Virus record (IMG/VR): IMGVR_UViG_3300020421_000032
Coordinates: 1 to 48,769 of that record
DNA: 48,769 nucleotides
Source of the DNA: a virus
Direction: 5' to 3' (one strand)
Part shown: piece after piece, positions 30,966 through 45,851 of the stretch
Layout: each line of letters begins with the position of its first letter
Numbering within the stretch: position 1 is the stretch's first letter
Notes under the pieces: model-generated
The model's input: only the letters and a program-made list of their open reading frames with translations
Databases searched by the model: none
What the model was told of the DNA's origin: nothing
Program-made: the position numbers and the translations under genes

Positions 30966-30991
30966 TTTTACATCTTTCGTAGGAGAAAAAG

Positions 30992-31042: not shown

Positions 31043-31527
31043 CGAAACTATATTACACTTGGGAAGATATCAATGGCATGATGGCTGATATCATTCAGCA
31101 GATGGCAACACAGATGTTGAGACCACATGTGGTATTAGGTCCAGGTAGAGGTGGATTTCCAATTGGTGTAATGATGAGTCATTACTTTGATATTCCATTT
31201 CATGGATTTGAATGGCAGACCAGAGATGGAGCGGTACAGAATTCTAATCAATTACAACAACTTTTGTCTAAATACAATGGTAAAAGAATTGTTATAATCG
31301 ATGACATAAATGATACAGGCACAACATTAAAAGGCATACATGAAGTAGTTAAAAAAGCAGGTATGGAAGATAATGTAAAGTATGTAACATTATTAGAAAA
31401 GATGTCAAGTGACTTTAGTACACAAATTTGTGCCAAAGAATTTGACGAAGAAGAAAGCAAACAATGGATAGTGTTTCCCTACGAGGAATGGTGGAACAAT
31501 AAAACAGGAGTACACAATGGCGGTTAG
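31039..31527 (+). CDS. Purine-type phosphoribosyltransferase
   Basis: This 162-residue type-I phosphoribosyltransferase has the PRPP-binding motif VIIDDINDTGTT (about residues 90-101) and GPGRGGFPIGVMMSHY (about 34-49), matching the hypoxanthine/xanthine/guanine salvage enzymes. FHGFEWQTRDG follows. It probably attaches ribose-5-phosphate to a purine base, acting in salvage or base supply for DNA modification. It stands first in the FolE/QueE operon (FolE overlaps by 11 bases), so a role in deazaguanine or guanine handling is attractive but unproven. Confidence 0.85.
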   Translation: MTKLYYTWEDINGMMADIIQQMATQMLRPHVVLGPGRGGFPIGVMMSHYFDIPFHGFEWQTRDGAVQNSNQLQQLLSKYNGKRIVIIDDINDTGTTLKGIHEVVKKAGMEDNVKYVTLLEKMSSDFSTQICAKEFDEEESKQWIVFPYEEWWNNKTGVHNGG

Positions 31528-32209
31528 TGACGTAATCAGAGAAAGAATTAAAAAAGCAGGTGCTAAGTTTTGGGCTGGTGATAATATCAGTCAATACTTA
31601 CATGAAGGCGAGAAAGAACAACTCATTGAAGAACTGCAACAAAAGTTCGAAGGAGTATTAGACAGTTTAGTTATTGATAGAGAGAATGATCCTAACAGTA
31701 ATCAAACTGGCAAACGTCTTGCTAAGATGTATATCAATGAATTGATGTCTGGTAGGTATGATCCTATGCCTAATGCAACTGCATTTCCTAATGAGATAGA
31801 AGAAGGCTACAAAGGCATGATTGTTATTAGAAGTGAGATAACAAGTATGTGTTCTCATCATCACCAGACAGTAAAAGGTGTAGCCTACATAGGTGTTATT
31901 GCAAGTGATAAATTGATTGGTTTGTCTAAATACACTCGTATAGCACAATGGTGTGCAAGTAGAGGCACATTACAAGAAGAATTGTGTAATGATATTGCTA
32001 GAGAGATTAAGAAAGCATGTGAAACTGACCATGTAGGAGTTTACATACAAGCCACACATGGTTGCGTAGAGAATAGAGGCGTAATGGCACATAGCAGTCT
32101 TACACAGACAACTGTATTAGAAGGTGCATTTAAAAATGAGGCAAAAGTTCAACAAGAGTTTATGGATAACATTAAACTTCAGCAACAATTTGCCGCAGGT
32201 AAAGGATAA
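31517..32209 (+). CDS. folE: GTP cyclohydrolase I
   Basis: This 230-residue enzyme is close in size to E. coli FolE (222). Zinc ligands are in EITSMCSHHHQ (C112, H115) and HGCVENRG (the third Cys, about residue 179). SDKLIGLSKYTRI and SSLTQTTVLEG match substrate-binding and C-terminal blocks. It converts GTP to dihydroneopterin triphosphate, the first step toward 7-deazaguanines and folate. Phage copies near QueE and DpdA usually serve base modification. It overlaps the phosphoribosyltransferase by 11 bases and is followed after two bases by the next gene. Confidence 0.95.
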   Translation: MAVSDVIRERIKKAGAKFWAGDNISQYLHEGEKEQLIEELQQKFEGVLDSLVIDRENDPNSNQTGKRLAKMYINELMSGRYDPMPNATAFPNEIEEGYKGMIVIRSEITSMCSHHHQTVKGVAYIGVIASDKLIGLSKYTRIAQWCASRGTLQEELCNDIAREIKKACETDHVGVYIQATHGCVENRGVMAHSSLTQTTVLEGAFKNEAKVQQEFMDNIKLQQQFAAGKG

Positions 32210-32211
32210 AC

Positions 32212-32739
32212 ATGATTGAGAAAAGGGCAAAAGCATTCGTAACTAGTAAAGGACTTGTTCCTGTTGACTTGATTGCGTCTGAGATAGGTAAAGGCAAAAA
32301 CCTTAATGGTTTACAAAGACTCTTTCCTATGTTACTTGAAGAAGATATATTTGAAGCAGTAGAGTTTTATGCAGAGAATACTAGTTTGCCTTTAATTGAA
32401 GAAGAAAAAATGCTTACCCTTGCTAATGTAGGTAAGGATAAGAATGATATTATTATAGAAGTAACTAACTTACATCAAGTGATATATTTAAAGTTAGTTG
32501 CTGAAGGATATAAATTGTACCCAGAAACAAAAGATTTTGCAAGCCTTATGAACACAGGTTTAAGGGTATGTTGTTTAGAAAATATTATTAGTATTGAAAA
32601 CAATACTGCAATAACAAACGAGTTGCATAGTTTGGTAAATAATGCTTTATTTGTTGCCTGTCCAGAAGTAAATGAGGACTTGGCAAGAACTAAAGATGAT
32701 TTAGATTATGCAGAATATATAACAAGAAGGGATAAATGA
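32212..32739 (+). CDS. Hypothetical protein between FolE and QueE, 175 aa
   Basis: This 175-residue soluble protein overlaps the QueE gene by four bases (ATGA) and follows FolE by two bases. The first half is helical (VTSKGLVPVDLIASEIG...LQRLFPMLLEEDIFEAVEFY), with a mid-region ADVIIEVTNLHQVIYLKLV-like strand/helix pattern and a Cys pair VCC near residue 122. There is no metal or cofactor motif. Its fixed place inside the queuosine-type operon suggests a partner in that pathway or a regulator. Confidence 0.72.
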   Translation: MIEKRAKAFVTSKGLVPVDLIASEIGKGKNLNGLQRLFPMLLEEDIFEAVEFYAENTSLPLIEEEKMLTLANVGKDKNDIIIEVTNLHQVIYLKLVAEGYKLYPETKDFASLMNTGLRVCCLENIISIENNTAITNELHSLVNNALFVACPEVNEDLARTKDDLDYAEYITRRDK

Positions 32740-33623
32740 AGTTAAGATACTCAGAAGCATTTTATAGTGTGCAAGGCGAAGGAAGATGGGTAGGAGTACC
32801 TAGTCTTTTCCTAAGAGTCTTCGGCTGTAATTTTGAGTGTGCTGGCTTTGGTCAAGAACGTGGTAAACTAATTCCAGTAGAGGAGATGCCTCACAACACA
32901 GATGAGAAAGCAGATCCTAATAACGAATTGGCTTATAAAAGTATAGAAGAACTACCAGTTACACCCATAGGGTGTGATTCAAGTGCTAGTTGGAGCAAGA
33001 AGTATAAACACTTGCAGTTGACTAAAACTCCGGAGGAAGTGTTTGAGCATTTAGTATCGCTACTTCCCAACAGCACTTTCGAGGGCAGGCACGGCGAAGA
33101 CATTCATCTTGTTATTACAGGTGGTGAACCGCTACTGGGGTGGCAACGTGTCTGGCCCTCACTCTTATCATTGTGTAAAGAAAGAGGATTAAGGAACGTA
33201 ACATTTGAAACTAATGGTTCTAAAGAAGTTACACCTGAGTTAATAAATTATTTTAATAGTCCAGAAGGAGAAGATATACATGTTACTTGGAGTACAAGTC
33301 CTAAGTTATCTTTGAGTGGAGAAAAATTAGAAGATACATTGAAGCCTGAATGTTTGACTTCAATGAATCAAGTGTTAAACAGTTATCTGTACAACAAATT
33401 CGTAGTTCGAGACATGTTAGACTTTGATGAAGTTGACATGTTTGTACAAGCATACAAAGATGCAAGAGTAATAGTAGACGCAATATATTGTATGCCAGAA
33501 GGAGCAACATTTGAACAACAAACATTAACAGAAAAAGATGTTGCTGAAGCATGTATGCAAACAGGCTATAAGTTCAGTCCTAGATTGCATATTAATTTAT
33601 TTGGAAACGCATGGGGAACTTAG
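32736..33623 (+). CDS. queE: 7-carboxy-7-deazaguanine synthase with split Cys cluster
   Basis: This 295-residue radical-SAM-type protein has the QueE start YSVQGEGRWVGVPSLFLRVFGCN. The iron-sulfur cysteines are C31, C35 and, after a 44-residue insert, C80 in PIGCDSSASW. C80 sits in the same CD-x-x-x-x-W context as the third Cys of ordinary QueE (CxWCDTxYTW), so the cluster is intact but split. GGEPLLGWQ (about 129) is the SAM-binding GGEP motif, and the barrel continues normally. QueE makes 7-carboxy-7-deazaguanine from carboxytetrahydropterin. Similar split forms are known in phages. Operon: PRTase, FolE, unknown, QueE. Confidence 0.92.
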   Translation: MKLRYSEAFYSVQGEGRWVGVPSLFLRVFGCNFECAGFGQERGKLIPVEEMPHNTDEKADPNNELAYKSIEELPVTPIGCDSSASWSKKYKHLQLTKTPEEVFEHLVSLLPNSTFEGRHGEDIHLVITGGEPLLGWQRVWPSLLSLCKERGLRNVTFETNGSKEVTPELINYFNSPEGEDIHVTWSTSPKLSLSGEKLEDTLKPECLTSMNQVLNSYLYNKFVVRDMLDFDEVDMFVQAYKDARVIVDAIYCMPEGATFEQQTLTEKDVAEACMQTGYKFSPRLHINLFGNAWGT

Positions 33624-33637
33624 ATAAGGAAAACACA

Positions 33638-33796
33638 ATGAGATACTATTGGAAACTCTGGGCAATGAGTTTAGGAGAAAAAGCAACAGAAGATACAACA
33701 GAAGCAGATAGGGTAGCAATTATTAGAACTATTGTAGTTCTTGTTAATTTCTTTACTTGCTTCTTTATTATATCTGGAGTATTGAGGCACTGGTAA
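33638..33796 (+). CDS. Small membrane protein, 52 aa
   Basis: ATG 33638 is preferred over the in-frame ATG at 33611 because TAAGGA (33626-33631) precedes it. The 52-residue protein has a charged N-terminus (SLGEKATEDTTEADRVA) and one membrane helix (about 29-50, TIVVLVNFFTCFFIISGVL). It is coupled to the next gene by overlap of stop and start. Function unknown. Confidence 0.65.
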   Translation: MRYYWKLWAMSLGEKATEDTTEADRVAIIRTIVVLVNFFTCFFIISGVLRHW

Positions 33797-34155
33797 TGAG
33801 CAAAGTAATGAAGTTTGTGTTAGGATTAATTGTTGTAGTTGTTGCATTGTTTACTACTATTCCAATAGAAGCAAGTGTAGACTTTGACGGTAAGAAAGTC
33901 AGAGTAGCGGCTATACAAAAGATTCAACCATTGAACGATGGTCAATTATTAATTACATTAATAGATGATATTGCTGTCGTTAATGTTGTTGGAGTATGTG
34001 ATGACTTATCAAAAGCAACAAAGTTCAGTTTTATAATTGAGCGAAGTTTTTATATTAGAAAAGGTAATCAATTTGTATATTGGAACATGGATAGCATGGA
34101 ACAAAAATGTACTGTAGATAGTTTTTCTAGATTAAGTGTAGACAATGTTGTATGA
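33796..34155 (+). CDS. Exported or anchored hypothetical protein, 119 aa
   Basis: The 119-residue protein starts at ATG 33796, overlapping the preceding stop. Residues 5-26 form a signal peptide or anchor (MKFVLGLIVVVVALFTTIPIEAS; cleavage possible after EAS). The remainder is beta-rich with VDFDGKKVRVAAIQKI and two cysteines (about 80 and 109). It is probably periplasmic or envelope-associated. Function unknown. Confidence 0.68.
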   Translation: MSKVMKFVLGLIVVVVALFTTIPIEASVDFDGKKVRVAAIQKIQPLNDGQLLITLIDDIAVVNVVGVCDDLSKATKFSFIIERSFYIRKGNQFVYWNMDSMEQKCTVDSFSRLSVDNVV

Positions 34156-34316
34156 TTAGTTGTGCAGAATGTGGAAAAGTTTTAATAGTAGAAATGGTAA
34201 AATATTATACTGCTAATAGAAGGTTTCATTTTTGTGATGCGTATTGCTCTAATGCATGGTACATGAAACATGAAACAAATGGAGATAAGAAAGATGAAAA
34301 GAATAATTCCTTTTAA
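34152..34316 (+). CDS. Small zinc-finger-like protein, 54 aa
   Basis: A coupled ATG at 34152 opens 54 codons with CAEC (residues 4-7) and FCDAYC (about 27-32), a CxxC...CxxxC arrangement of a small zinc-binding finger, followed by a charged tail. It overlaps the next gene by 23 bases in another frame. A DNA, RNA or protein contact role is possible. Confidence 0.55.
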   Translation: MISCAECGKVLIVEMVKYYTANRRFHFCDAYCSNAWYMKHETNGDKKDEKNNSF

Positions 34317-34791
34317 ATTACACCCAAGCAGTTGGGGTAAAACTGGTAAGGTCAGACAAATTGCAGAAGCAAATTACAGTTTGTCTGGAATTGAATTGAA
34401 GAAAGCATTGGCAAATATTGAACAGGATACGCCTGAAGATAAAGCACTAGCAGAACTTAAAGTTGAGTTTGATGAAGGCATGATTGGTCAGTTAGAATTT
34501 GACAGACGTGAAGCAAGTGTACTCAAACAACCTTGGGTAGAAGTTAAAAAGATGCAAGTCAATGAGGAAGATCCTAAGCAAGGTTATATGGAACTTGATT
34601 GGAATGATGAGTTCGTTGCCATGTTATCTGCTAAAGGTTACACAGGTGAAAGTGATGAGTCTGTAGTAAATGGTTGGTTCAATGATGTATGCAGAACTGT
34701 ATTGTTAGATGAACTACAGGATCAAGACTACGGAATGGAATCCAGAGATGATGTAGTTGTAATCAACAATAATGAGAACAATGAAGGATAG
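34294..34791 (+). CDS. Hypothetical protein, 165 aa
   Basis: ATG 34294 is chosen over 34270 because GGAGA (34281-34285) precedes it. The 165-residue acidic protein has a basic start (KRIIPFKLHPSSWGKTGK), a helical core (IELKKALANIEQDTPEDKALAELK...), a WVEVKKMQVNEEDPKQGYMELDWND strand region and an acidic, Asn-rich tail. No motif is recognised. Confidence 0.68.
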   Translation: MKRIIPFKLHPSSWGKTGKVRQIAEANYSLSGIELKKALANIEQDTPEDKALAELKVEFDEGMIGQLEFDRREASVLKQPWVEVKKMQVNEEDPKQGYMELDWNDEFVAMLSAKGYTGESDESVVNGWFNDVCRTVLLDELQDQDYGMESRDDVVVINNNENNEG

Positions 34792-35032
34792 TATTGCAAC
34801 AGCCAAATTGGCTAAAGTAGTTAATGAAGAGATAGCACCTGCTATTGATAACTTCATTTCTAGTTTATCAGATGAGGAGATTTTAGAGTTGTTAAAAAAC
34901 TTTAAAACAATGCAAATAGATTTAGTCCGTGACTTAAAGAAAGCCGCGGATGCCAGAAGGATAGAAGTCATTACAGGTGATAGTCCTTTTGATACAATCA
35001 TGGAGGAGGGCATAATGCCTGCAAATAAATGA
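34772..35032 (+). CDS. Hypothetical helical protein, 86 aa
   Basis: An 86-residue protein overlapping the previous gene by 20 bases and the cupin gene by four. It is mostly helical and charged (AKVVNEEIAPAIDNFISSLSDEEILELLKNFKTMQIDL...). ATG 34781 is another possible start. Function unknown. Confidence 0.65.
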   Translation: MRTMKDSIATAKLAKVVNEEIAPAIDNFISSLSDEEILELLKNFKTMQIDLVRDLKKAADARRIEVITGDSPFDTIMEEGIMPANK

Positions 35033-35367
35033 CAATGCAGAAGGTCAATATAAAAGACATAGGTGGATATATAGCCAAAGAGGACGACAGATATGTTGTT
35101 AAAGATAATCCTTTTGGCAATACACTAATTTTATCTAGCACTTTCCTACAAGCAGGAAAAGAAACTTCAGGTCACTTTCATAAAGGACAAGAAGAAGTAT
35201 ATTTCTTTGTAGATGGTGTAGGGGAAATGACTATTGATGATAATAGATTTCCTGTTGAAAAGGGTGATGTTGTTTGTATTAATGATGGTGAGTTCCACAA
35301 AGTTCATAATACAAGTGACTTCGGATTATATTTTGTTTGCGTATTTGATGGCGCAAGGAGACACTAA
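35029..35367 (+). CDS. Cupin-domain protein
   Basis: This is a 112-residue single cupin. GHFHKGQEEVYFFVDGVGEM (about residues 45-64) is the first conserved block G(x)5HxH(x)3,4E(x)6G, and GDVVCINDGEFHKVHN (about 76-91) is the second block with its His. Such small cupins bind a metal and act as sugar isomerases, epimerases or dioxygenases. The substrate is not recognisable, but a sugar-phosphate role would fit the glycosyl genes upstream. Start at 35029 overlaps the preceding stop; 35035 is also possible. Confidence 0.82.
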   Translation: MTMQKVNIKDIGGYIAKEDDRYVVKDNPFGNTLILSSTFLQAGKETSGHFHKGQEEVYFFVDGVGEMTIDDNRFPVEKGDVVCINDGEFHKVHNTSDFGLYFVCVFDGARRH

Positions 35368-36353
35368 TGAATTATTTACTTGTAGATGGATTAAACATGT
35401 TCATGAGAGCCAAGCACGTTGGTGGCAAAGGTTCAATTGATATGAAGATTGGTATGGCAATGCACATCATGTTTAACAGTATTAACAAGTGTTGGAGAGA
35501 GTTTGACGGCAATCATATTGTATTATGTTTAGAAGGTAGAAGTTGGCGTAAAGACTTTTATGCTCCTTACAAAGCGAACAGAAGAGTTGTAATGGATCAA
35601 AGAAGTGTTAGAGAGCAAGAAGATGATGAACTTTACTTTGAAGCATATGATGATATGGTTAAGTTCTTTAGTGAAAAGACTAATTGTAGTGTTGTACAAT
35701 GTGAGAAAGCAGAAGCAGATGATATGATTGCTACTTGGATTCAGCAACATCCTGAAGATAACCATTATATTATTAGTACTGATAGTGACTTCTATCAGTT
35801 AATAGCACCCAATGTAACGCAGTACAACGGTACAACTGACCAAGTAGTTACATTAGAAGGCTTTAAAGATTTAAAAACAGGAGAGCCTGTTATAGACAAG
35901 AAAACTAAAGAGCCTAAGAAGGCAATAGTTCCTGAGTTTGCATTATTTGAAAAGTGTGTTAGAGGTGATAGTTCAGACAATGTGTTTAGTGCATACCCTG
36001 GTGCAAGATTAAAAGGTACTAAAAACAAAACAGGTATATTAGAAGCCTTTGAAGATAGACACACAGGCGGTTATGATTACAATAACTTTATGTTGCAACG
36101 ATGGGTCGACCATGAAGAAACAGAACACAGAGTAATAGATGACTTTGAAAGAAACAAGATCCTAATTGACCTAACTGAGCAACCTGATGAGATTAAGCAA
36201 CTATGCATTGAACGTATGAATGAAGGCAAACAGAAAGAAGCAGTTGCTAACATAGGTATACACTTTATGAAGTTCTGTGCTAAATGGGACTTACAAAGAA
36301 TGAGTGACAATGCTCAAACATATTCTGGAATGTTAAATGGCAGAGCTGGATAA
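35367..36353 (+). CDS. rnh: 5'-3' exonuclease, T4 RNase H-like
   Basis: This is a 328-residue nuclease of the FEN-1/T4 RNase H (gp rnh) family, which removes RNA primers and flaps during lagging-strand synthesis. The N-terminus MNYLLVDGLNMFMRA carries the first metal-binding Asp. KAEADDMIATW (about 115-124) has acidic ligands, STDSDFYQLI (about 136-145) carries two more, and RGDSSDNV (about 195) gives the conserved GDxSDN. Size is close to T4 RNase H (305). It stands between the cupin and a small gene (overlap) and belongs functionally to the polymerase and clamp. Confidence 0.92.
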   Translation: MNYLLVDGLNMFMRAKHVGGKGSIDMKIGMAMHIMFNSINKCWREFDGNHIVLCLEGRSWRKDFYAPYKANRRVVMDQRSVREQEDDELYFEAYDDMVKFFSEKTNCSVVQCEKAEADDMIATWIQQHPEDNHYIISTDSDFYQLIAPNVTQYNGTTDQVVTLEGFKDLKTGEPVIDKKTKEPKKAIVPEFALFEKCVRGDSSDNVFSAYPGARLKGTKNKTGILEAFEDRHTGGYDYNNFMLQRWVDHEETEHRVIDDFERNKILIDLTEQPDEIKQLCIERMNEGKQKEAVANIGIHFMKFCAKWDLQRMSDNAQTYSGMLNGRAG

Positions 36354-36507
36354 AGATATAGAGAAGATGATGAAAGAAATTAAAAACCCGCAACATGGCA
36401 AGAAATGGATATATGAAAGAGCGGATGACAAAGTTTATAAAAGAGAATTCGGTGCTGATCCTAGTACCAGAATATTAATCAATCCTGAGGAGGTAAAAAA
36501 TGATTAA
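36337..36507 (+). CDS. Small basic protein, 56 aa
   Basis: An ATG at 36337, inside the 3' end of the nuclease gene, opens 56 codons of a charged protein (KNPQHGKKWIYERADDKVYKREF...). Its stop overlaps the next ATG by eight bases. It fills the gap to the next gene and reads in a coupled way. Function unknown. Confidence 0.6.
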   Translation: MAELDKDIEKMMKEIKNPQHGKKWIYERADDKVYKREFGADPSTRILINPEEVKND

Positions 36508-37033
36508 GTTCAAAGAGCAAGTAAAATTGCAACAGATAAGCGATGATGCTTGGATTGTGAATGATGATACCAAACGTGTTGGTATTCTGCACAAAACTGT
36601 TCAAGACAAATTCACTTATGTAGATAAGACTGAGACTATCTTATATGATAGTGAAGCAGAAGTAAAAGAAGCATTTCAAAACAAGTTCTTGTTTAGGAAT
36701 ACAAATAAACTGGATATAAATCAACCAGCAACCTTTTACATTAAAGGTTATGAAGTTGATTACCCAAACCCAGTACCAGTAGATCCTAGTCACAAAGACT
36801 ATATGGAAGAGATTCCTTTGTTTGCTAAAACAGAAAACAGTGATGTTTACTATGCGGCAGGCTGGTATGCAATTAATTTTGAGAAAGGATGGAAACATGG
36901 TAACTGTCCTAAATTGAGTACGTTGATTACATATGGTTATGAAGGTCCATTTAAAACCAAAATAGAACTAAAACAACGACTCAAAGTGTTAAATAAAATA
37001 AAGAGACAAGCAAGTAAAGTACATGCAAAATAA
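36500..37033 (+). CDS. Hypothetical protein, 177 aa
   Basis: A 177-residue protein with a strong GAGGAGG ribosome site (36486-36492). It has a beta-rich N-terminus, a central YEVDYPNPVPVDPSHKDYMEEIPLF segment, a W/Y-rich middle (YYAAGWYAINFEKGWKHGNCPK) and a basic C-terminus (LKVLNKIKRQASKVHAK). It shows no known motif. The basic tail could bind nucleic acid. Confidence 0.7.
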   Translation: MIKFKEQVKLQQISDDAWIVNDDTKRVGILHKTVQDKFTYVDKTETILYDSEAEVKEAFQNKFLFRNTNKLDINQPATFYIKGYEVDYPNPVPVDPSHKDYMEEIPLFAKTENSDVYYAAGWYAINFEKGWKHGNCPKLSTLITYGYEGPFKTKIELKQRLKVLNKIKRQASKVHAK

Positions 37034-37229
37034 CGAGCCAAACGATATTGAATTATTTGTTAGACACATTAATCATTTGTTTGATAAAGGTGAGAAACAA
37101 GTAACACTTGATGTTGAATACTTACATAGAATTGCAAAACAGTTTGATGTAAACAAAGCACCAAGTACCAATAGAGATTTGGACAAAGAAATATATGTTA
37201 CAGGCGGACAATTTAAAGATAATGACTAA
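37023..37229 (+). CDS. Hypothetical protein, 68 aa
   Basis: A 68-residue polar protein, coupled by overlap of 11 bases upstream and 8 bases downstream. It has a helix-strand pattern (IELFVRHINHLFDKGEKQVTLDVEYLHRIAKQFDV). No function recognised. Confidence 0.65.
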   Translation: MQNNEPNDIELFVRHINHLFDKGEKQVTLDVEYLHRIAKQFDVNKAPSTNRDLDKEIYVTGGQFKDND

Positions 37230-37605
37230 GATATCTGGAGACAGACTTCCGGAAAGAGTTGCTATAGGTATTAAGTCAACTCAAATGATGTCAAGAGCCA
37301 CAGGGGGTACTCCTCAGACCAGTGGTGCAGGACAACTAGGTGACTATAAAGAAGGTTGTGGTTACAATAAAATCTTTGAACATAGAGTTATGTGGCAAGA
37401 AGGTTTCTATGATGGCAGAGATGAAGACTGGCGTGAAGTAGGAATACCTATGTATGTAATTGAAGCGATAAATATACAGGTTAAAGGAATGTTTGGTTGG
37501 CATTTTAATACAGTTGATAATACCAAACAAGCAATTATAACCTTTAGTGATCCAGACGATGCATTCTGGTTCAGACTTAAACACGTTAAACAAGGAAACA
37601 CATGA
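37222..37605 (+). CDS. Hypothetical protein, 127 aa
   Basis: ATG 37222 is preferred to 37195 because the overlap with the previous gene is then only eight bases. The 127-residue protein ends in GMFGWHFNTVDNTKQAIITFSDPDDAFWFRLKH. The final strand plus acidic-aromatic pattern (F-x-x-x-D-DA-x-W/F-x-L) is also seen in the protein at 39400. No motif of known function. Confidence 0.68.
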   Translation: MTKISGDRLPERVAIGIKSTQMMSRATGGTPQTSGAGQLGDYKEGCGYNKIFEHRVMWQEGFYDGRDEDWREVGIPMYVIEAINIQVKGMFGWHFNTVDNTKQAIITFSDPDDAFWFRLKHVKQGNT

Positions 37606-37832
37606 TAGTAGAAATTTATAGTAAACCACAATGCCCATATTGTGATATGGCAAAAGCATTAGCAGAAAGAGAAGAACACAATTTAACAGTTAAAATGTTA
37701 GATGAAGATTTTGATAGAGAAACACTAATGGAAACATTTCCAGGTGCAAGAACTTTCCCACAAATTATTGTAGACGGAAATAAGATTGGTGGCTATCAAG
37801 AATTTAAAAAAATAGTAGATGGAGAAAAATGA
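37602..37832 (+). CDS. grx: Glutaredoxin, dithiol CPYC type
   Basis: A 76-residue glutaredoxin with the CPYC active site (C11, C14), a TFPQIIVDG segment with the conserved cis-Pro (about 52-60) and GGYQEF (about 63). It reduces disulfides with glutathione, and can support ribonucleotide reductase as T4 NrdC does. It opens a redox cassette: its last codons overlap the start of the copper-protein gene by four bases. Confidence 0.93.
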   Translation: MIVEIYSKPQCPYCDMAKALAEREEHNLTVKMLDEDFDRETLMETFPGARTFPQIIVDGNKIGGYQEFKKIVDGEK

Positions 37833-38290
37833 AAAAGATAGTCTTAGCATTAAGTTTATTTTTACTAACAGTTCCAGCATTTGCGGCTGAGCATGAAGTA
37901 AAAATGTTAAACAACGGAGCAGGTGGCATGATGATATTTGAACCTGCTGTATTAAAAGTTTCAGTAGGAGATACTGTGAATTTTGTAGCAACAGATATGG
38001 CACATAATTCAGCATCAGTGTTTACTCCTCCAGGAGCGACAGTATGGAATGGTGCAATGAGCAAAGACATTTCAATTACAATAACCGAGCCAGGTGTTTA
38101 CATATATGAATGTACACCACATGCAATGATGGCAATGGTAGGTGTAATACAAGCAAGTGATGATTTAGACTTTGAAATGTCTCTTGACAGTACTTATGTT
38201 GAATTGGCACATGAGTTTGCAAAAACATATCAACAAAAATTTGTTATGAATAACCAGAGGTTGGATGCCTATATACACGAGTTAGAATGA
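37829..38290 (+). CDS. Pseudoazurin-like type-1 blue copper protein
   Basis: This 153-residue protein has a signal peptide (MKKIVLALSLFLLTVPAFAA, cleavage after residue 20), so it is periplasmic. The copper ligands are H59 in TDMAHNSASV and C95, H98 and M103 in YECTPHAMMAMVG; their spacing (Cys+3 His, His+5 Met) is that of pseudoazurin. The final 35 residues form a helix-rich extension beyond the usual fold. Pseudoazurins shuttle electrons between membrane complexes and periplasmic enzymes or cytochromes. The cytochrome c gene directly follows, overlapping by four bases, so the two probably form an electron-transfer pair. Confidence 0.9.
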   Translation: MKKIVLALSLFLLTVPAFAAEHEVKMLNNGAGGMMIFEPAVLKVSVGDTVNFVATDMAHNSASVFTPPGATVWNGAMSKDISITITEPGVYIYECTPHAMMAMVGVIQASDDLDFEMSLDSTYVELAHEFAKTYQQKFVMNNQRLDAYIHELE

Positions 38291-38733
38291 GAGAGTTAGG
38301 TATGGTATTAGCAGGATGCGTTGCATTATATTGCTTCTTTGCATTTGTAATATATCCTGATTTAGAGTATAAAGGTTATAAACGTAACAGTAATTGCTCA
38401 GGCGAGTGCTATGTAGAGTATGTAAAAAAATACGGAACAGTAGTAGAAATAGAACAACGTAAAAGAGAATTAGCAAACTTAGATGACTTTAGTGGCATCA
38501 GAAGTTTATGGGCAGGTTGTGCCGCATGTCATGGATCAGATGGCGGTGGTGGAGTTGGTCCAAAGTTAGCAGGACAGACTGCTGACACAATAATAATGAA
38601 ACTTACTACATATAAAAACAATGGACGAGTAGGTCCAATGAGTCAGATGATGTGGGGTCAAGCCGCTAATCTATCTCAAGAAGATATAGAAACAATTGGT
38701 AAGTTTGTACAAGAAGGATTTCCAAGCAAGTGA
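38287..38733 (+). CDS. Membrane-anchored class-I cytochrome c
   Basis: This is a 148-residue cytochrome with an N-terminal membrane anchor (about residues 4-22, LGMVLAGCVALYCFFAFVI). The heme-binding motif is CAACH (C78, C81, H82) in WAGCAACHGSDGGGGVGPKLAGQ, followed by a Met-rich stretch (VGPMSQMMWG) that offers the distal ligand. It has the c-type fold of a small electron carrier or an oxidase-associated subunit. The four-base overlap with the copper-protein gene suggests co-translation. Heme attachment would need the host cytochrome maturation system. Two cysteines at about 37 and 41 in the linker are unusual. Confidence 0.92.
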   Translation: MRELGMVLAGCVALYCFFAFVIYPDLEYKGYKRNSNCSGECYVEYVKKYGTVVEIEQRKRELANLDDFSGIRSLWAGCAACHGSDGGGGVGPKLAGQTADTIIMKLTTYKNNGRVGPMSQMMWGQAANLSQEDIETIGKFVQEGFPSK

Positions 38734-39035
38734 ATATACAAGAACAACTACAAGATATAATCAAAGACAACAATATTATATTGTTTATGAAAGGTAATCC
38801 ACATCAACCAAAATGTGGATTCAGCGGCAAAGTAGTAGAAATACTAAAACAATATGAAATTGAATTTAGTTATTTGGATATACTTGAAGATCCAGAAGTA
38901 AGAGCAACATTACCTAGTGTAAGTGACTGGCCCACATTCCCACAACTATTCGTTAAAGGCGAGTTGGTAGGTGGTTGCGACATAATTACTGAAATGCATG
39001 AGTCAAAAGAACTAAAAGAAGTATTAGAAGGTTAA
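38730..39035 (+). CDS. grxD: Monothiol glutaredoxin, CGFS type
   Basis: This 101-residue protein has the CGFS active site (C29-S32), the family motifs KGNPHQPKCGFS and WPTFPQLFVKGELVGGCDI with the cis-Pro, and the full length of GrxD/Grx4-type proteins. These carry and insert [2Fe-2S] clusters with glutathione rather than reduce disulfides. It begins with GTG at 38730, overlapping the cytochrome stop by four bases. A cluster carrier here could support the Fe-S enzyme QueE, but that is inference. Confidence 0.93.
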   Translation: MNIQEQLQDIIKDNNIILFMKGNPHQPKCGFSGKVVEILKQYEIEFSYLDILEDPEVRATLPSVSDWPTFPQLFVKGELVGGCDIITEMHESKELKEVLEG

Positions 39036-39038
39036 ACA

Positions 39039-39068
39039 TAGTTTTAAAGACCCATTAAAACTAGTTTT
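39039..39068 (+). terminator. Probable AT-rich terminator
   Basis: A perfect 8-bp stem TAGTTTTA/TAAAACTA (39039-39046 and 39056-39063) is followed by GTTTTTA. It lies after the redox cassette and just before a late promoter. Confidence 0.6.
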
Positions 39069-39071
39069 TAT

Positions 39072-39079
39072 GATAAATA
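39072..39079 (+). promoter_or_regulatory. T4-type late promoter, GATAAATA
   Basis: GATAAATA lies 20 bases before ATG 39099 and right after the terminator of the redox operon. Confidence 0.6.
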
Positions 39080-39098
39080 AGTGTATAGGAGACTATAC

Positions 39099-39407
39099 AT
39101 GAGCAGACCAAAACCTAAAATACTACTAGAAGCAGTTCACAAGGACACATATAAAGCAGACCAAATATTAGCGGCTGAAGCCATATACTCTGTGTTTTAT
39201 CAAGGAAAACCAATAAACTTGAGAACACTCAACAAGTTAGTTTCTTATCCAGGACCTAAATATAAAAAAGTGTCATTCAGTAACAGTGGACATGCCTTTA
39301 ATCTTGCAGAAAAACTGAACAAAACTTTCAATACAGATGAGTTTCAAGTTATTAAATTAACACAAGGTGATGTCATATCAGAAGACCAAATCACCGGAAA
39401 TGAATAA
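39099..39407 (+). CDS. Hypothetical late protein, 102 aa
   Basis: ATG 39099 is preferred over 39081 because ATAGGAG (39085-39091) fits it and the protein then starts SRPKPKILLEAVHK. The 102-residue basic protein has an early helix (KDTYKADQILAAEAIYSVFY) and a strand-loop region (INLRTLNKLVSYPGPKYKKVSFSNSGH) of wHTH-like outline. Its role is unknown. The late promoter suggests a virion or assembly function. Confidence 0.7.
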   Translation: MSRPKPKILLEAVHKDTYKADQILAAEAIYSVFYQGKPINLRTLNKLVSYPGPKYKKVSFSNSGHAFNLAEKLNKTFNTDEFQVIKLTQGDVISEDQITGNE

Positions 39408-39768
39408 CAGTAGCCTACAGGTAAAAATTACAGAAAGAATGAGAGAGGAGCATACAACTCTTCAACAATATCCTGTACCTGATGTTTGCTACATGTTATT
39501 TAAAAACTTTCAATACAGTGATACAACTTGTACAGGTTTACGTTTAACTAAACTTGGCTTTACATTATTAAAAGAACAATACGACATGTATAGATTTCCA
39601 ATTGCAAAAGAAGGTATGCACAACAACTTACTATTAAAATTACATGAGCATATGAAATGGCCCTATTACTTAGATAGAAAGAATTTAATATTGTTTAGTG
39701 AAGAAGATGCTATGTGGTTAAAGTTAGTAGGAAATGATGTCGAAAAATTTGCTAAAGGTTTAGATTAA
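39400..39768 (+). CDS. Hypothetical protein, 122 aa
   Basis: ATG 39400 overlaps the stop of the preceding gene by eight bases. The 122-residue product has a helical start, an LRLTKLGFTLLKEQYDMYRF segment resembling the N-terminal part of winged-helix proteins, and ends WPYYLDRKNLILFSEEDAMWLKLV. The closing strand-acidic-aromatic pattern is shared with the protein at 37222. Function unknown. Confidence 0.65.
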   Translation: MNNSSLQVKITERMREEHTTLQQYPVPDVCYMLFKNFQYSDTTCTGLRLTKLGFTLLKEQYDMYRFPIAKEGMHNNLLLKLHEHMKWPYYLDRKNLILFSEEDAMWLKLVGNDVEKFAKGLD

Positions 39769-39783
39769 GGAGTAAATAAAAGC

Positions 39784-41112
39784 ATGTCAGGAATATTATA
39801 TAATTCAGTGTATCCTTGGAACACAACATCCGAGCCACCAAGTTGTATGGTACCTTTGCCATTTACACCTGACGAAGTTGCTGGTAATTGGAAATATGGC
39901 AAAATAAAAATACCTCCCGTAGAAAAACAATTACCACAGTCAATTACTTATACTTTTAATAATGTTGATGAGTTTGTTTTTCCACCAATGAAAGAAAAGC
40001 ATATCTCTAAAGATGAATATATTTGGTATCAATTTTGTCCTACAGACACCTTAAGTGCCTGGAAATCAAACGAACAAATATTTAAAAAAGAACACAAAAA
40101 TAGGGTAGATAGAATCAATCTTCCAAAACAATTTAACCTTAAGCCTTGGGAAGATTGGGACGAAAAGAACTTTCAACGTCATTGGAATTACAGAAATTTA
40201 TATAACATTGACGAATTGTTATACAAAGTTAATCTGCATGGTTTTAGAGCAGATGATTTTCACTCAACAAAGAATTCAAATAGACGTAAAATTATGTTCT
40301 TAGGTTGTAGTTTTACATTTGGCATAGGTGCTAGAAATGAAGAGATATGGCCTCATTTGGTTTCAGAAAAGTTTGATGCAGTCAATTGGAATATGGGTGT
40401 TGGAGGCAGTTCGCCTAAACTTGCAGTAATGTTAGCAGAACACATGTTCAGAATAGGATATATTCCAGAGTTTGTTTGTGTAAACTGGCCCAGTAGATTC
40501 AGAAATGTTTTAGTTAATAGAAGTAAGTTTGAAAAGATGTTAGATTCACACAATGATACAATTAATGAAACAAGCAGTATGAATGAACAAATTAAGAAAT
40601 GGCAAGCCATTGCAGATGCACAAGGTATGGCAGATTTGTTTTATGCTGAAAGCAAGAATGATGATGGGTTCACATTGCCTGATATTAATCCAACTAAGTT
40701 TGATCCTAAGAATTTTAATGATTATCCTAACCATACTTGGTCATATATGCCTTCAGATGGAACAGATAAGGAAAATAAATTACTTAAAGCAGTCAATACT
40801 ACAGATGCTTTTAAAAGTCAAGAGTACCTAAATGGAACAGAACATGAACTGTTAATGTTCAATGATTTAAGAGCAAAATTAAGATTTATGTGTAAAGCAT
40901 ATGGCGTAAAACTTATTGAAACATTTTGTGATAGCCAATCACATAGGCTTGCATTAGAAGTTCACAAACATGAAGAAGATTGGATAAGCGGAACTCCAGT
41001 AGATACAAGTGTTTTTAACTTTGATAGAGCAAGAGACGGCAGTCATTGGGGTCCAGTTACTCATCAAATAGTGGCAAGATTGTTTGCAGAACGCATAGAA
41101 AAGCACATATAA
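39784..41112 (+). CDS. SGNH-hydrolase-like protein
   Basis: This 442-residue protein has IMFLGCSFTFGIGARN (about residues 166-181) in the position of the GDS(L) block with its catalytic-type Ser, and RDGSHWGPVTHQIVARLF (about 416-433) in the position of the C-terminal D-x-x-H block. WNMGVGGSSP (about 202) provides the conserved Gly. The family includes acetyl- and carbohydrate-esterases. The N-terminal 140 residues have an unrelated Trp/Tyr-rich region, and a 100-residue insert with DGFTLPDINPTKFDPKNF separates the blocks. A surface-sugar esterase or a glycan modification role is possible. The ribosome site is AAGGAG (39768-39773), set rather far from the ATG. Confidence 0.75.
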   Translation: MSGILYNSVYPWNTTSEPPSCMVPLPFTPDEVAGNWKYGKIKIPPVEKQLPQSITYTFNNVDEFVFPPMKEKHISKDEYIWYQFCPTDTLSAWKSNEQIFKKEHKNRVDRINLPKQFNLKPWEDWDEKNFQRHWNYRNLYNIDELLYKVNLHGFRADDFHSTKNSNRRKIMFLGCSFTFGIGARNEEIWPHLVSEKFDAVNWNMGVGGSSPKLAVMLAEHMFRIGYIPEFVCVNWPSRFRNVLVNRSKFEKMLDSHNDTINETSSMNEQIKKWQAIADAQGMADLFYAESKNDDGFTLPDINPTKFDPKNFNDYPNHTWSYMPSDGTDKENKLLKAVNTTDAFKSQEYLNGTEHELLMFNDLRAKLRFMCKAYGVKLIETFCDSQSHRLALEVHKHEEDWISGTPVDTSVFNFDRARDGSHWGPVTHQIVARLFAERIEKHI

Positions 41113-41167
41113 TCAGTAAAATCGCTTATTTCAAGCAAAAAAAATACCAAAAAAAGTGGAAAAAAGG

Positions 41168-41195
41168 TTGACTTTACCCTAGAAATCTGTATAAT
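41168..41195 (+). promoter_or_regulatory. Sigma70-type promoter
   Basis: AAAAAAGG, TTGACT (41168-41173), 16-base spacer, TATAAT (41190-41195), starting the ligase operon. Confidence 0.9.
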
Positions 41196-41230
41196 ACTAT
41201 GTATAAGTTAATAAAAAGGTAGGAGATTTT

Positions 41231-41653
41231 ATGAGCACATTCGTAATAGTAAACAAACAAAATGACAGTTTGTTTTCTGAGCCAAGCAGACCATCTTGGA
41301 AGGGTACGTCTTACAAGTCCGAAGGGGCGGCTAAGGCTGGTATTACTAGAACTATTAAGTTCTATGAAAAAGCAGTTGCTGATGTTGAGAGAGTAGTTGC
41401 TGAAGGTGAGAAAGAATATGCATCAAGAATGTATAATGCTTTCCGTGATGCTACTGATACTGATTTAGGTAGAACTCACTTGGCAGACAGAGATAACTAC
41501 AGAGTTATGTCTGCAGAAGAGTATGCTTTAATTGAGCCAATGATTACTAAGACTGGTAAAAGTCCTTATAATGGTAAGGAGATTACTGTAACGCAATCGA
41601 TTAACACACCTCACTACATGGACCCATTGAGTGAGTCATATTACACTAGGTAG
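41231..41653 (+). CDS. Hypothetical protein, 140 aa
   Basis: A 140-residue protein with a TAGGAG ribosome site, first in the operon that reaches DNA ligase. It has TFVIVNKQNDSLFSE, then GTSYKSEGAAKAGITRTIKF, a helical middle, and an NTPHYMDPLSESYYTR end. No domain is recognised. Confidence 0.72.
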   Translation: MSTFVIVNKQNDSLFSEPSRPSWKGTSYKSEGAAKAGITRTIKFYEKAVADVERVVAEGEKEYASRMYNAFRDATDTDLGRTHLADRDNYRVMSAEEYALIEPMITKTGKSPYNGKEITVTQSINTPHYMDPLSESYYTR

Positions 41654-41661
41654 GAGCAACT

Positions 41662-42051
41662 ATGAAATTTCACAAACAAGTTAAAATACCTGGTATGACT
41701 ATGGAGCAGATTGTAGATGCTCTTCGTAACTCAGAGTTAGAAATGAGACCAATGAGGGCTGAATACAGTTTTGAGAAGAAGTTCAAAACTACTAACACAA
41801 TGTCAGATTTCAATTTACTTATTGAAGATGAGCAAGTTGAAGTTCAGGCTAATGGTGATTACAATGTTTGGAGTTTTGTTCCTTATGTTGCTAGAAACCT
41901 TTTAGGTGTTAAGGACAAATACTTAACAATGAGATACACTAAGAGTGATATCGGTTACGAAAGACGTGGCTGGGTTGAGTATGGTCCTAACGGAATGGAA
42001 AAGGGCAAGAAATACATTGATGGTAAAACTGGTGAGGAGAAAACTGTATAA
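41662..42051 (+). CDS. Hypothetical protein, 129 aa
   Basis: A 129-residue protein with helical and strand mix (MEQIVDALRNSELEMRPMRAEYSFEKKF...YNVWSFVPYVARNLLGVKDK). It is coupled to the small gene after it (TAATG). Function unknown. Confidence 0.7.
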   Translation: MKFHKQVKIPGMTMEQIVDALRNSELEMRPMRAEYSFEKKFKTTNTMSDFNLLIEDEQVEVQANGDYNVWSFVPYVARNLLGVKDKYLTMRYTKSDIGYERRGWVEYGPNGMEKGKKYIDGKTGEEKTV

Positions 42052-42221
42052 TGCATACTCAAATCAGTAACAACAAAAGACAGCAGAGACGGGCGGCTAG
42101 ACAACCTGTCTCTACTTTAACTCATACCACAAGAGAAGTTGCAGAACATTTTCTCAAGTGGAGAGAAAAGTTAAGAGAGACTATGATTGGTCATAACGGA
42201 GGGCCCAAAATAAATGAATAA
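42051..42221 (+). CDS. Small basic protein, 56 aa
   Basis: ATG 42051 overlaps the preceding stop by one base and opens 56 codons of a strongly basic helix-rich product (NNKRQQRRAARQPV..., then VAEHFLKWREKLRETM). It overlaps the ligase start by eight bases. It probably binds nucleic acid, but this rests only on charge. Confidence 0.62.
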   Translation: MHTQISNNKRQQRRAARQPVSTLTHTTREVAEHFLKWREKLRETMIGHNGGPKINE

Positions 42222-43488
42222 TCCTTGGAAAGTAATACAAAAGTTGGAATCAGATAACAGTTCTTTGTTCAAGCAGTCTGTGATTAAAGACAACTTGGAT
42301 AATGAAGAATTTATTATGGGTGCAAAAATGTGCCTTGATCCGCTTGTTACATTCGGGGTAAAGCAAGTTCCATTTAGTGAAACAGATGGTGAAGGTTTGC
42401 CTTGGAAAGAGTTTGAAGAACTTGCTCATGCTTTGCAAACTAGACAACTTACTGGACATGATGCCAGAGATGCCATACAACGTGATTGTGATATGGCTAC
42501 TAACGAGCAGTGGAACGATTGGTACAGACGTATCCTTATTAAAGATTTGAGATGTGGTACTGGTGCTAAACTTATTAACAAAGTTCAAGCAGATACTATT
42601 CCACTATTTGGTTGTATGTTAGCACATGATGGTGCTAAACATCCTAAAAAGATTGCTGGCGAATGTTATGTTGAATACAAATATGATGGTGTTCGTGTAA
42701 TTGCTATTGTGCAAAATGGTAGTGCTACATTACATTCACGTAACGGAAAACTGTTAGAAAACTTCCCACACATTGAAGAAGCATTGAGCAAGCCTGAGTT
42801 TGAAGGACTTGTATTTGATGGTGAGGTAATGAGTGAGGACTTTCAAACACTTATGAAACAAGTGCATAGAAAAGAAGGTGCTCAAACTGAGGATTCATAC
42901 CTAGCAGTATTTGACATGCTAACATTAGATGAATTCAATGCTGGTGGTACAAGTAAAAATGCTGTTGAAAGGCGTCAAAGAATAGTAAACCTTTCTAACC
43001 TATTTACATATAGAATCCAATTAGTTGATGCAACACTCATAGACATGGATTCTGATGAAGGACAAGTAAAGTTTCAGGCAATGAATAAACGTGCATTAGA
43101 CGAAGGATATGAGGGTCTAATGATAAAGCCTGTGAGTGAAGGATACAAATGTAAACGTTCACATGCTTGGTTGAAGATTAAACCTTTCATTGAAGTTACA
43201 TTAGAAGTAACTGGCTTTGAAGAAGGCACAGGTAAAAATGAAGGCATGTTAGGTGCTCTCATTGTAGAAGGTACTGATGATGGTAAGTTCTTCCACCTTA
43301 ATGTTGGTAGTGGACTTACAGATGACATGCGTAAAGATGTCTGGGCAGTTAAAGATGCAGTAATTGGTCAATTGGTAGAGATAAGAGCCGATGCGGCAAC
43401 ACAAAGCCAAGATGCTGATGATGTTTGGAGTTTAAGATTCCCTAGATTTAAAACATTTAGAGGATTCGAATTAGGAGAAAAATTGTAA
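42214..43488 (+). CDS. 30: ATP-dependent DNA ligase, T4 gp30-like
   Basis: This 424-residue ligase joins nicked DNA. The nucleotidyltransferase motif I is EYKYDGVRV (about residues 152-160, adenylated Lys about 155). Motif III is VFDGEV near 205, motif IV EGLMIKP near 304 and motif V HAWLKIKP near 318. A C-terminal OB-fold domain follows (TLEVTGFEEG, then VEIRADAATQS). It is shorter than T4 gp30 (487), mostly in the N-terminal DNA-binding part, but fully equipped catalytically. Coupled to small genes on both sides (overlapping ATGAATAA and TAATG). Confidence 0.95.
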   Translation: MNNPWKVIQKLESDNSSLFKQSVIKDNLDNEEFIMGAKMCLDPLVTFGVKQVPFSETDGEGLPWKEFEELAHALQTRQLTGHDARDAIQRDCDMATNEQWNDWYRRILIKDLRCGTGAKLINKVQADTIPLFGCMLAHDGAKHPKKIAGECYVEYKYDGVRVIAIVQNGSATLHSRNGKLLENFPHIEEALSKPEFEGLVFDGEVMSEDFQTLMKQVHRKEGAQTEDSYLAVFDMLTLDEFNAGGTSKNAVERRQRIVNLSNLFTYRIQLVDATLIDMDSDEGQVKFQAMNKRALDEGYEGLMIKPVSEGYKCKRSHAWLKIKPFIEVTLEVTGFEEGTGKNEGMLGALIVEGTDDGKFFHLNVGSGLTDDMRKDVWAVKDAVIGQLVEIRADAATQSQDADDVWSLRFPRFKTFRGFELGEKL

Positions 43489-43589
43489 TGTATGATATAA
43501 GTGAAAAAGGTGAAAAGCAATTCAAAAGGGTCGAACGACTCATTTGGGGATTGTATATTTTAATACCAGTTATGGTTTTTGTAATATGA
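43488..43589 (+). CDS. Possible small membrane protein, 33 aa
   Basis: ATG 43488 overlaps the ligase stop by one base and opens 33 codons with a charged start and one membrane helix (LIWGLYILIPVMVFVI). It is the first of two tiny coupled frames between ligase and the lipoprotein gene. Confidence 0.5.
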   Translation: MYDISEKGEKQFKRVERLIWGLYILIPVMVFVI

Positions 43590-43651
43590 TTAACTGGGTA
43601 TTTGGTTGGATTAGTATAGATTATCTTAAGCACAAAGGAGTTATCAAATGA
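43586..43651 (+). CDS. Possible micro-protein, 21 aa
   Basis: An ATGA overlap with the preceding frame opens 21 codons (MINWVFGWISIDYLKHKGVIK) that end on the next ATGA. It is supported only by the overlaps on both sides. The ribosome site AAGGAG for the next gene lies within it. Confidence 0.35.
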   Translation: MINWVFGWISIDYLKHKGVIK

Positions 43652-43878
43652 GAGAATTACAAAATGGATATCTAGCAATCATAGTTTTAATTATTTTTAC
43701 TGTGGTAGCATGTGGAACTAAAGTTGAAAGCAAAAGCATCGACTCTGTTCCTGTGGACTATTTGGATAGTCCTAAAACAGAATGTTATGATGTGGAAAGG
43801 TTTTATTTCGACACACCCGGAATAGATCCACATGAAATAAAAACCAAAAAAGAGTGTGAGGAGACAGTCATAGGTTAA
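43648..43878 (+). CDS. Putative lipoprotein, 76 aa
   Basis: A 76-residue protein with a hydrophobic signal (GYLAIIVLIIFTVVAC) and a lipobox-like VVAC (Cys22), so it is probably lipid-anchored on the periplasmic side. The remainder is Asp/Glu-rich with cysteines at about 46 and 70. Small phage lipoproteins sometimes block superinfection, but no specific evidence is present. Confidence 0.7.
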   Translation: MRELQNGYLAIIVLIIFTVVACGTKVESKSIDSVPVDYLDSPKTECYDVERFYFDTPGIDPHEIKTKKECEETVIG

Positions 43879-44258
43879 TGAGAAGGTACGAAAACATAAA
43901 TGGTGAGAAACCAGTAATAGAAATCAAGGAACATCATGTTCCTGGCAGTAAGCATGTTATTCTCACGTTTAAAAACGGGTATGGTGCCAGCATCATACCT
44001 GAGTACGATTATCCACGTTTCGATATTAAAGGTGAAGAAATAGAAAAAAGTATGGACAGGATAATGAATAGAAAAGTTATTCCTGGTTTGTATGAAGTTG
44101 CAGTATTTTTTAATGGTGAGTTATGTTATGATACACCTATCACATCAGATGTATTGCGTAGTCAAAATGATCCTGAAGTACAAAATATTGTACAAAAGAT
44201 ACAACGACTAGAAAGAATGGACATTCACTATTTACATCCGGAGGAAGACGATGCCTAA
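43878..44258 (+). CDS. Hypothetical protein, 126 aa
   Basis: A 126-residue soluble protein, coupled (TTAATGAG overlap upstream; eight-base overlap with next gene). It has a beta-rich first half (HVILTFKNGYGASIIPEYDYPRFDI), a strand VIPGLYEVAVFFNGELCYDTPI and a helical, acidic end. No motif is recognised. Confidence 0.7.
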   Translation: MRRYENINGEKPVIEIKEHHVPGSKHVILTFKNGYGASIIPEYDYPRFDIKGEEIEKSMDRIMNRKVIPGLYEVAVFFNGELCYDTPITSDVLRSQNDPEVQNIVQKIQRLERMDIHYLHPEEDDA

Positions 44259-44724
44259 TTGGTGTGCAAATGAAGTTAGAATAGAAGGTCCTGTGGACAA
44301 AATCTATGACATGGCTATGGCTATGGAACGTGAAGAATTATTAGAACATTTAGTTCCTGTTGAAGGCGACAACTTTGAAAGAACTAGTTCATGGGGTACC
44401 AAATGGGATATATCAGATGTACACATGGAACACAATGTTGAAGATGGTGTTATAGAAGCAAGTTTTATGACAGCATGGGGACCACCTGATATGGCATTTG
44501 TTACATACTTAGGTAAGAATGATGATGTTACTATTGAAAACTATTTTTATGAACCTGGTATGGCTTTTGCAGGTGTTGATTCAGAATCAGTAGAACTACC
44601 TGAAACACCAGATGCAGATGAATGGGAAGATGATGTCTTACTGCAACAATTAGATACTATGTTTGGTATAAGAGATTGTATGTGGGAAAGTGAAACGTTA
44701 GAGATTGAAGAGAACGCAGAGTAA
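44251..44724 (+). CDS. YubB/DUF1281-like ferredoxin-fold protein
   Basis: This 157-residue protein opens with MPNWCANEVRIEGP, the start seen in the DUF1281/YubB family found in phages and plasmids, followed by WGTKWDISDV and FMTAWGPPDMAF. The C-terminal half is acidic. The family function is not known. It lies in an operon of small genes. Confidence 0.72.
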   Translation: MPNWCANEVRIEGPVDKIYDMAMAMEREELLEHLVPVEGDNFERTSSWGTKWDISDVHMEHNVEDGVIEASFMTAWGPPDMAFVTYLGKNDDVTIENYFYEPGMAFAGVDSESVELPETPDADEWEDDVLLQQLDTMFGIRDCMWESETLEIEENAE

Positions 44725-44867
44725 TGGGACATCCAACTGAAACACAAATATTTAAAGCAATCAAAGATGGTATTGCAGAAGTGTTGGATAATATGCGAAA
44801 GCATATGGCAGAGATGGATGAAAAGTTAGAAGAAATTAAAAGGAGACTTGACAATGGAAACGACTGA
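44724..44867 (+). CDS. Small coiled-coil-like protein, 47 aa
   Basis: ATG 44724 overlaps the preceding stop by one base and opens 47 codons forming one long charged helix (IAEVLDNMRKHMAEMDEKLEEIKRRL) of coiled-coil type. It overlaps the next start by 14 bases. Function unknown. Confidence 0.6.
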   Translation: MGHPTETQIFKAIKDGIAEVLDNMRKHMAEMDEKLEEIKRRLDNGND

Positions 44868-45796: not shown

Positions 45797-45851
45797 GGAG
45801 AAATGTTTATGGTGTAGTAACCTTAAACTATATGAATACATAAGAGAGTAG
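45777..45851 (+). CDS. Possible micro-protein with CxxC, 24 aa
   Basis: ATG 45777 inside the SET gene end opens 24 codons (MLKYITKEKCLWCSNLKLYE and a short tail) with a CLWC pair. No ribosome site is clear. It is weakly supported. Positions 45852-45930 hold no other gene. Confidence 0.3.
   Translation: MLKYITKEKCLWCSNLKLYEYIRE

Follow-up and report, generated by a model that had tools for sequence, protein, structure and literature searches.

Gene content of the locus

The window analysed here is the whole 48,769-base stretch of an IMG/VR viral record; it has about 36% G+C, its long open reading frames lie nearly all on the + strand, and no tRNA genes were found across its length. The window DNA polymerase is closest to those of large T4-like phages, namely Sinorhizobium phage Phosso (46%) and Agrobacterium phage Atu_ph07 (42%), and a megablast search with positions 30000-48000 matched no phage record. 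The source is probably a large uncultured phage of marine origin, the label 'marine' being inferred from genome bins and from the cellular relatives of its cytochrome. A host assignment through those relatives, which are marine Gammaproteobacteria, was rejected as their identity is only 32-37%. Genes for a phosphoribosyltransferase, GTP cyclohydrolase I and a QueE-like radical SAM protein at 31039-33623 probably belong to a 7-deazaguanine pathway.

The following features are referred to below, the slot being the place between the conserved flanking genes exo and dn1.

26670-27263, + strand: alternative oxidase (AOX, diiron quinol oxidase), with all six diiron ligands (PF01786, 1.7e-67)
35367-36353, + strand: 5'-3' exonuclease (exo), conserved left flank of the slot (PF02739, 3.1e-21)
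36500-37033, + strand: up3, conserved left flank (flank comparison)
37195-37605, + strand: up1, conserved left flank, overlapping the first glutaredoxin gene by 4 nt (open reading frame and flank comparison)
37602-37832, + strand: dithiol glutaredoxin with CPYC, the resident of the slot in 21/21 slots (PF00462, 5.5e-13; phrog_22, 1.7e-18)
37829-38290, + strand: pseudoazurin with signal peptide (Copper-bind, 4.7e-13; TIGR02375, 111.9 bits against a cut-off of 109.85)
38287-38733, + strand: membrane-anchored class I cytochrome c with CAACH (PF00034 Cytochrom_C, 1.9e-7)
38730-39035, + strand: CGFS monothiol glutaredoxin (Grx4 family), GTG start (TIGR00365, 140.5 bits, 1.5e-41, cut-off 117.1)
39072-39079, + strand: GATAAATA, T4-type late-promoter-like element 3' of the cassette, kept in 18/21 loci
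39099-39407, + strand: dn1, conserved right flank (flank comparison)

The four gene identities given in the first-pass annotation (CPYC glutaredoxin, pseudoazurin, cytochrome c and CGFS glutaredoxin) were correct, as judged by PF00462, TIGR02375, PF00034 and TIGR00365, respectively. The first glutaredoxin belongs to the general family PF00462 and scores 57.4 bits against the GrxC model of bacterial glutaredoxin 3 (TIGR02181), under its cut-off of 90, while the last combines a CGFS motif with a TIGR00365 score above cut-off and is a member of the Grx4 family. Neither glutaredoxin protein has an export signal. The copper ligands of the pseudoazurin (H59, C95, H98 and M103) are intact and are invariant in eight phage copies, and purifying selection acts on each of the four cassette genes (dN/dS 0.06-0.44). 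A cyanophage photosynthetic gene cassette was considered and rejected, given a plastocyanin model score of 36.5 bits against a cut-off of 87.85 and no photosynthesis family among the scanned window proteins, which represent part of the open reading frames.

Gene junctions and the end of the slot

Overlaps of 4 nt are present at all three junctions within the cassette, as had been noticed from the sequence, and with the overlap of up1 and the first glutaredoxin gene they make a five-gene chain. Among the 64 same-strand junctions of the window there are eight 4-nt and nine 1-nt overlaps. Four of the eight 4-nt overlaps are consecutive at the cassette. Simple counting of placements by hand gives this a chance of about 0.7%, so the packing here departs mildly from random. 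Relatives show overlaps mostly of 1, 4 or 8 nt at the corresponding junctions; a 4-nt overlap throughout occurs in this record alone and is one local, non-conserved version of tight 1/4/8-nt packing. The fixed stoichiometry proposed from the overlaps is not supported, since overlap lengths vary and gene content varies freely amongst relatives.

The cassette had also been thought to be closed by a terminator. A scan for terminators gave no match on the + strand, and the AT-rich hairpin at 39034-39067 is weak (-7.1 kcal/mol, z -1.67) and not conserved among relatives. The element GATAAATA, which has the form of the T4-type late-promoter element, occupies the same place just upstream of dn1 in 18 of the 21 loci compared, so that the slot probably ends where late transcription starts. 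ATAAATA elements occur on the + strand of the window at 3282, 6650, 12000, 12492, 16176, 18050, 39073 and 45969, 12-80 nt 5' of gene starts, and fit T4-type late promoters.

Modularity of the slot

The slot set comprises 21 distinct loci with the common flanks exo to dn1. Gene order was constant in all of them, running up3, up2, up1 and dithiol glutaredoxin, then pseudoazurin, cytochrome and CGFS glutaredoxin where present, and finally dn1. Relatives thus share the gene order of the window but mostly lack its complete set: the dithiol glutaredoxin is found in 21 loci, the cytochrome and the CGFS glutaredoxin in 15 each and the pseudoazurin in five, with all four genes together in three. As the place between the two glutaredoxins is filled by the cytochrome, the pseudoazurin, both or neither, the two carriers appear to be interchangeable.

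Comparison of individual loci shows that this cargo is exchanged between phage backbones. The two nearest relatives, L007 and L203, share exo, up3 and dn1 with the window at 94-99% protein identity, yet their cytochrome is only 72% and their glutaredoxin 81-85% identical, and the pseudoazurin is missing. The distant backbone of L082 (up3 54%, exo 68%), on the other hand, carries a pseudoazurin of 76% and a glutaredoxin of 82% identity. Once the backbone was allowed for, glutaredoxin and cytochrome distances were correlated in part (partial r 0.31, p 0.005) and the pseudoazurin, with n=5, showed no such correlation. Transfer of the whole cassette as a single block, which the first-pass annotation had raised, was rejected on these grounds, the identities of cargo and flanks being uncoupled. 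The linkage is real but modular: the slot holds small redox genes as an exchangeable block, among them a cytochrome c and a copper protein of kinds employed in bacterial respiration, and clearly illustrates how redox cargo can move between conserved phage backbones.

The membrane-anchored cytochrome c

The cytochrome consists of an anchor (residues 2-25, a predicted helix in the AF2 model), a CxGxC pair at C37 and C41, a haem site CAACH at 78-82 and a probable axial Met122. CAACH and Met122 are invariant, PF00034 is matched at 1.9e-7 and the fold matches c554/c552, so that the protein is predicted to be a haem protein of class I. The AF2 model, which is without haem, has a pLDDT of 79.5 with low confidence at residues 30-37. 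The closest PDB structures to the haem domain are the small electron carriers c554, c552, c553 and c4; identity with cytochrome c4, which has two haem domains, was rejected as there is a single CxxCH in the 148 residues. Haem is attached to c-type cytochromes in the periplasm, and the residues beyond the anchor can be placed there by virtue of the haem attachment site.

Two extra cysteines between anchor and haem domain had been noted at about residues 37 and 41, and these positions proved exact. Both are invariant in 68/68 distinct phage proteins and in the aligned cellular homologues, a conservation second only to that of the haem site. Such invariance in phage and marine gammaproteobacterial proteins alike makes the pair an inherited feature.

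The CxGxC motif resembles the CxxxC metal sites of Sco and CuA proteins. The pair may thus be a metal site, for example for copper, in a protein that helps to insert copper or haem into host oxidases and is not itself a carrier. This likeness, the invariance of the pair in phage and cellular proteins and the adjoining pseudoazurin in the window slot agree with such a role. No conserved His or Met lies near the pair at CuA spacing, however, and no structural match was obtained outside the haem domain. The AF2 model is also unreliable at residues 30-37, and we consider a metal site quite improbable.

Relatives and genomic contexts of the cytochrome

At least 320 relatives of the cytochrome were found in IMG/VR viral contigs, and at least 535 by profile search. 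None was found among 50,697 phage records, collections that may omit near records, even when a different member of the family was searched with at E 0.1; there was no match in PHROG and none at E 0.001 among viral structures. The family is thus a phage clade: uncultured T4-like phages carry it on hundreds of contigs, and the libraries searched (cultured phages, PHROG and viral structures) do not contain it. Twelve phage records tested had one cytochrome each. Four matches in bacterial genome bins (L122-L125) are phage-like copies, and the true cellular relatives, from marine Gammaproteobacteria, have the anchor, CxGECY and haem domain in common with the phage proteins. Among 274 genomes drawn from the class of genome G001, the cytochrome was present in G001 only. 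On a tree of 149 columns with many weak forks, the phage cytochromes fall on one side and the cellular ones opposite.

Locus scans, which took the best 80 loci per query and are biased to the query, gave 87 distinct cytochrome loci. The cytochrome lies in an RNR operon (nrdA-nrdB-...-cytochrome-Grx) in 29 of these, in the slot in 17 (by flank-gene label), with uvsW/gp55 in 15 and before ferritin in six; the rest are elsewhere, including beside DNA polymerase and IscU/IscA genes. At least six contexts of the cytochrome can be told apart, and glutaredoxin adjoins it in about half. Glutaredoxin occupies 49/171 positions adjacent to the cytochrome against 2/1038 at five or more genes away, although related loci are not independent. 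One locus (L085) repeats the order glutaredoxin-pseudoazurin-cytochrome after a DNA polymerase cluster. The association of glutaredoxin with periplasmic electron carriers, which could have been accidental, is therefore not a matter of chance: the order holds in all related loci and the adjacency recurs in unrelated contexts.

This adjacency, together with the invariant cysteine pair, would be expected if glutaredoxins and cytochrome formed one pathway of fixed stoichiometry, with disulfide exchange to C37/C41 and then transfer to haem, as the first-pass annotation had in part suggested. Direct exchange is unlikely since the glutaredoxins, having no export signal, are cytoplasmic and C37/C41 are periplasmic. 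Moreover, the pair is equally invariant in bacterial homologues, no glutaredoxin lies beside the one whose locus was read (L128), cytochromes with the pair occur in uvsW and ferritin contexts where glutaredoxin is missing, and the gene content of the slot varies. Such a thiol relay is very improbable.

Pfam searches confirmed ferritin, class V aminotransferase (IscS-like), IscU, IscA-type, peroxiredoxin, RNR, AOX and ferredoxin genes as cytochrome neighbours. The cytochrome might therefore be a donor for periplasmic peroxide removal or part of an iron/Fe-S set, outside the energy chain. It lies beside peroxiredoxin in L071, L078 and L081 (all labelled uvsW), beside ferritin and an IscS-like gene in L217 and L253, and between IscU and an IscA-type gene in L241; the CGFS glutaredoxin of the slot is also in keeping with this. 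However, the neighbours examined included no cytochrome c peroxidase, iron and peroxide contexts account for only about 10 of the 87 loci, and pseudoazurin and AOX are better suited to electron transport. A housekeeping role of this kind is unlikely, with some chance of being correct.

A ferritin-like gene follows the phage cytochrome in L217, L222, L228, L232, L253 and L259, with the class V aminotransferase next to ferritin in L217 and L253 as a possible phage iron/Fe-S island. In L241 (9537-10767) the genes on either side of the cytochrome (PF01592 and PF01521) both overlap it by 4 nt.

The contexts of the cytochrome on its tree require 26 changes where the minimum is five, and the sequence nrdA-nrdB-TMpep-Grx was found both with and without an inserted cytochrome. 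In addition, the DNA of the first glutaredoxin gene is 80-89% identical across backbones whose up3 proteins are 54-98% identical. The conserved glutaredoxin gene may accordingly serve as a recombination anchor by which neighbours travel along without a common function. The cytochrome is nevertheless kept in contexts that have no glutaredoxin, and hitch-hiking alone does not predict cargo of related function (redox or iron). As a full explanation it is distinctly unlikely, though both it and the respiratory-carrier explanation developed below could hold.

TMpep, a small single-TM, tail-anchored peptide of the family EVHPMKQ...QVxVFGFML (alignment A4; L080, 3997-4167; L263, 2977-3174), is encoded at 430 or more viral loci, where its gene lies between nrdB and glutaredoxin or between uvsW and gp55; it has no significant Pfam match. 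It was rejected as a partner of the cytochrome, being a widespread phage gene with a cytochrome near it in 11 of the best 80 loci.

The alternative oxidase

The window AOX was found with a profile built from the AOX neighbours of cytochrome loci. Its ligand motifs, read from the sequence, are intact (LET, NERMH, EEEA and RADExxH), and AOX is also present in the three nearest long relatives of the window. In L207 the genes for cytochrome, EF-hand protein, pseudoazurin, TM peptide, ferredoxin and AOX lie in a row, and in L208 and L212 the cytochrome overlaps AOX by 4 nt. Enrichment of AOX with the cytochrome was rejected (8/25 versus 6/23 phages), and the oxidase is therefore taken as a co-resident respiratory gene that does not prove a joint module. 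Related T4-like phage contigs often encode AOX, whether or not they have the cytochrome, and one public record, that of Phage C48C1, carries it annotated as hypothetical.

Proposed function of the slot

What is observed at the slot is the identity of its genes, their intact ligands and purifying selection, a modular order, recurrence elsewhere and an oxidase gene in the same record. We favour, by a little, the reading that a large T4-like phage here has a slot for cargo, in which accessory respiratory electron carriers are lodged beside RNR and Fe-S redox genes. On one side of the slot is a cluster of genes with the exonuclease, on the other a gene with the late-promoter element. Dithiol glutaredoxin is the usual reductant of ribonucleotide reductase, and the resident one probably has this role, as judged from a related gene that follows nrdAB in related phages. 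Interchangeable redox genes, that is the anchored cytochrome, the pseudoazurin and the CGFS glutaredoxin, would have been inserted beside it, the last possibly serving Fe-S delivery. During infection the pseudoazurin would reach the periplasm through host export, and haem would be joined to the anchored cytochrome by the host system for cytochrome c maturation. Once host carriers became limiting, these two proteins could carry single electrons from cytochrome bc1 to terminal oxidases, a role suggested by the nearest structures of the cytochrome, which are such carriers. The phage alternative oxidase may work alongside, drawing electrons from quinol. Respiration, ATP supply and NAD+ recycling would thereby be kept up, and in the cytoplasm the glutaredoxins would meanwhile serve dNTP synthesis and Fe-S enzymes. 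Expression, loading with haem and copper, partner complexes, the type of host and a benefit to the phage are presumed in this account.

The presence of AOX in the record and its relatives and the cytochrome-AOX loci L207, L208 and L212 speak for respiratory carriers, as do the intact haem and copper ligands, the dN/dS values, the alternation of cytochrome and pseudoazurin between the two glutaredoxins and the 29 RNR-operon loci of the cytochrome. Against them, AOX shows no enrichment with the cytochrome, the cellular homologues have no known role here, the neighbours of L128 are not respiratory genes, and the ferritin, IscU/IscA and peroxiredoxin contexts would equally suit iron or peroxide handling. 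A broader version is that marine phages infecting heterotrophs run a respiratory module which re-routes the host electron chain during infection and is coupled in a single operon with dNTP and Fe-S redox supply. The module would consist of AOX and the anchored cytochrome c, whose extra CxGxC would be a redox or metal site and for which pseudoazurin could stand in. This we regard as doubtful, with a modest chance of being right.

Comparison with known systems

Phage genes sustaining host electron flow are known from cyanophages, and the slot points to a respiratory counterpart of these. If this is true, phages may steer the respiration of heterotrophic bacterioplankton. As with cyanophage petE plastocyanin and PTOX, a one-electron copper carrier and an oxidase of the AOX superfamily are phage-encoded here, and the only named-phage matches of the window pseudoazurin are cyanophage plastocyanins, at less than 40% identity. 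Unlike those plastocyanins, the window copper protein scores as a pseudoazurin; a c-type cytochrome that has no relative in the phage records is added, and no photosystem genes were met in the window parts examined. No report of a phage cytochrome c/pseudoazurin/AOX system was found in the open-access literature.

The marine gammaproteobacterial cytochromes (LSUCC0096, Litoricola and Halioglobus bins) resemble the phage ones in anchor, CxGECY, CAACHG and MWGQ. Unlike the phage genes, the bacterial gene is stand-alone in the locus read, and the phage proteins form a separate clade. Cytochrome c-y has a single N-terminal anchor and a class I haem domain; the phage cytochrome has this architecture too, but no close sequence relation to c-y. 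With c554, c552 and c4 it shares the haem-domain fold, c4 being dihaem and the phage protein monohaem with the CxGxC motif as an extra.

The dithiol glutaredoxin recalls the T4-type nrdA-nrdB-Grx operon, in which it is the phage RNR partner and into which the cytochrome is built in the 29 RNR-operon loci. The window slot, in contrast, holds no nrd genes, and NrdB was not found in the 48.8-kb record. In L280 (3132-6286) a phage pseudoazurin gene lies immediately 5' of a B12-type ribonucleotide reductase gene.
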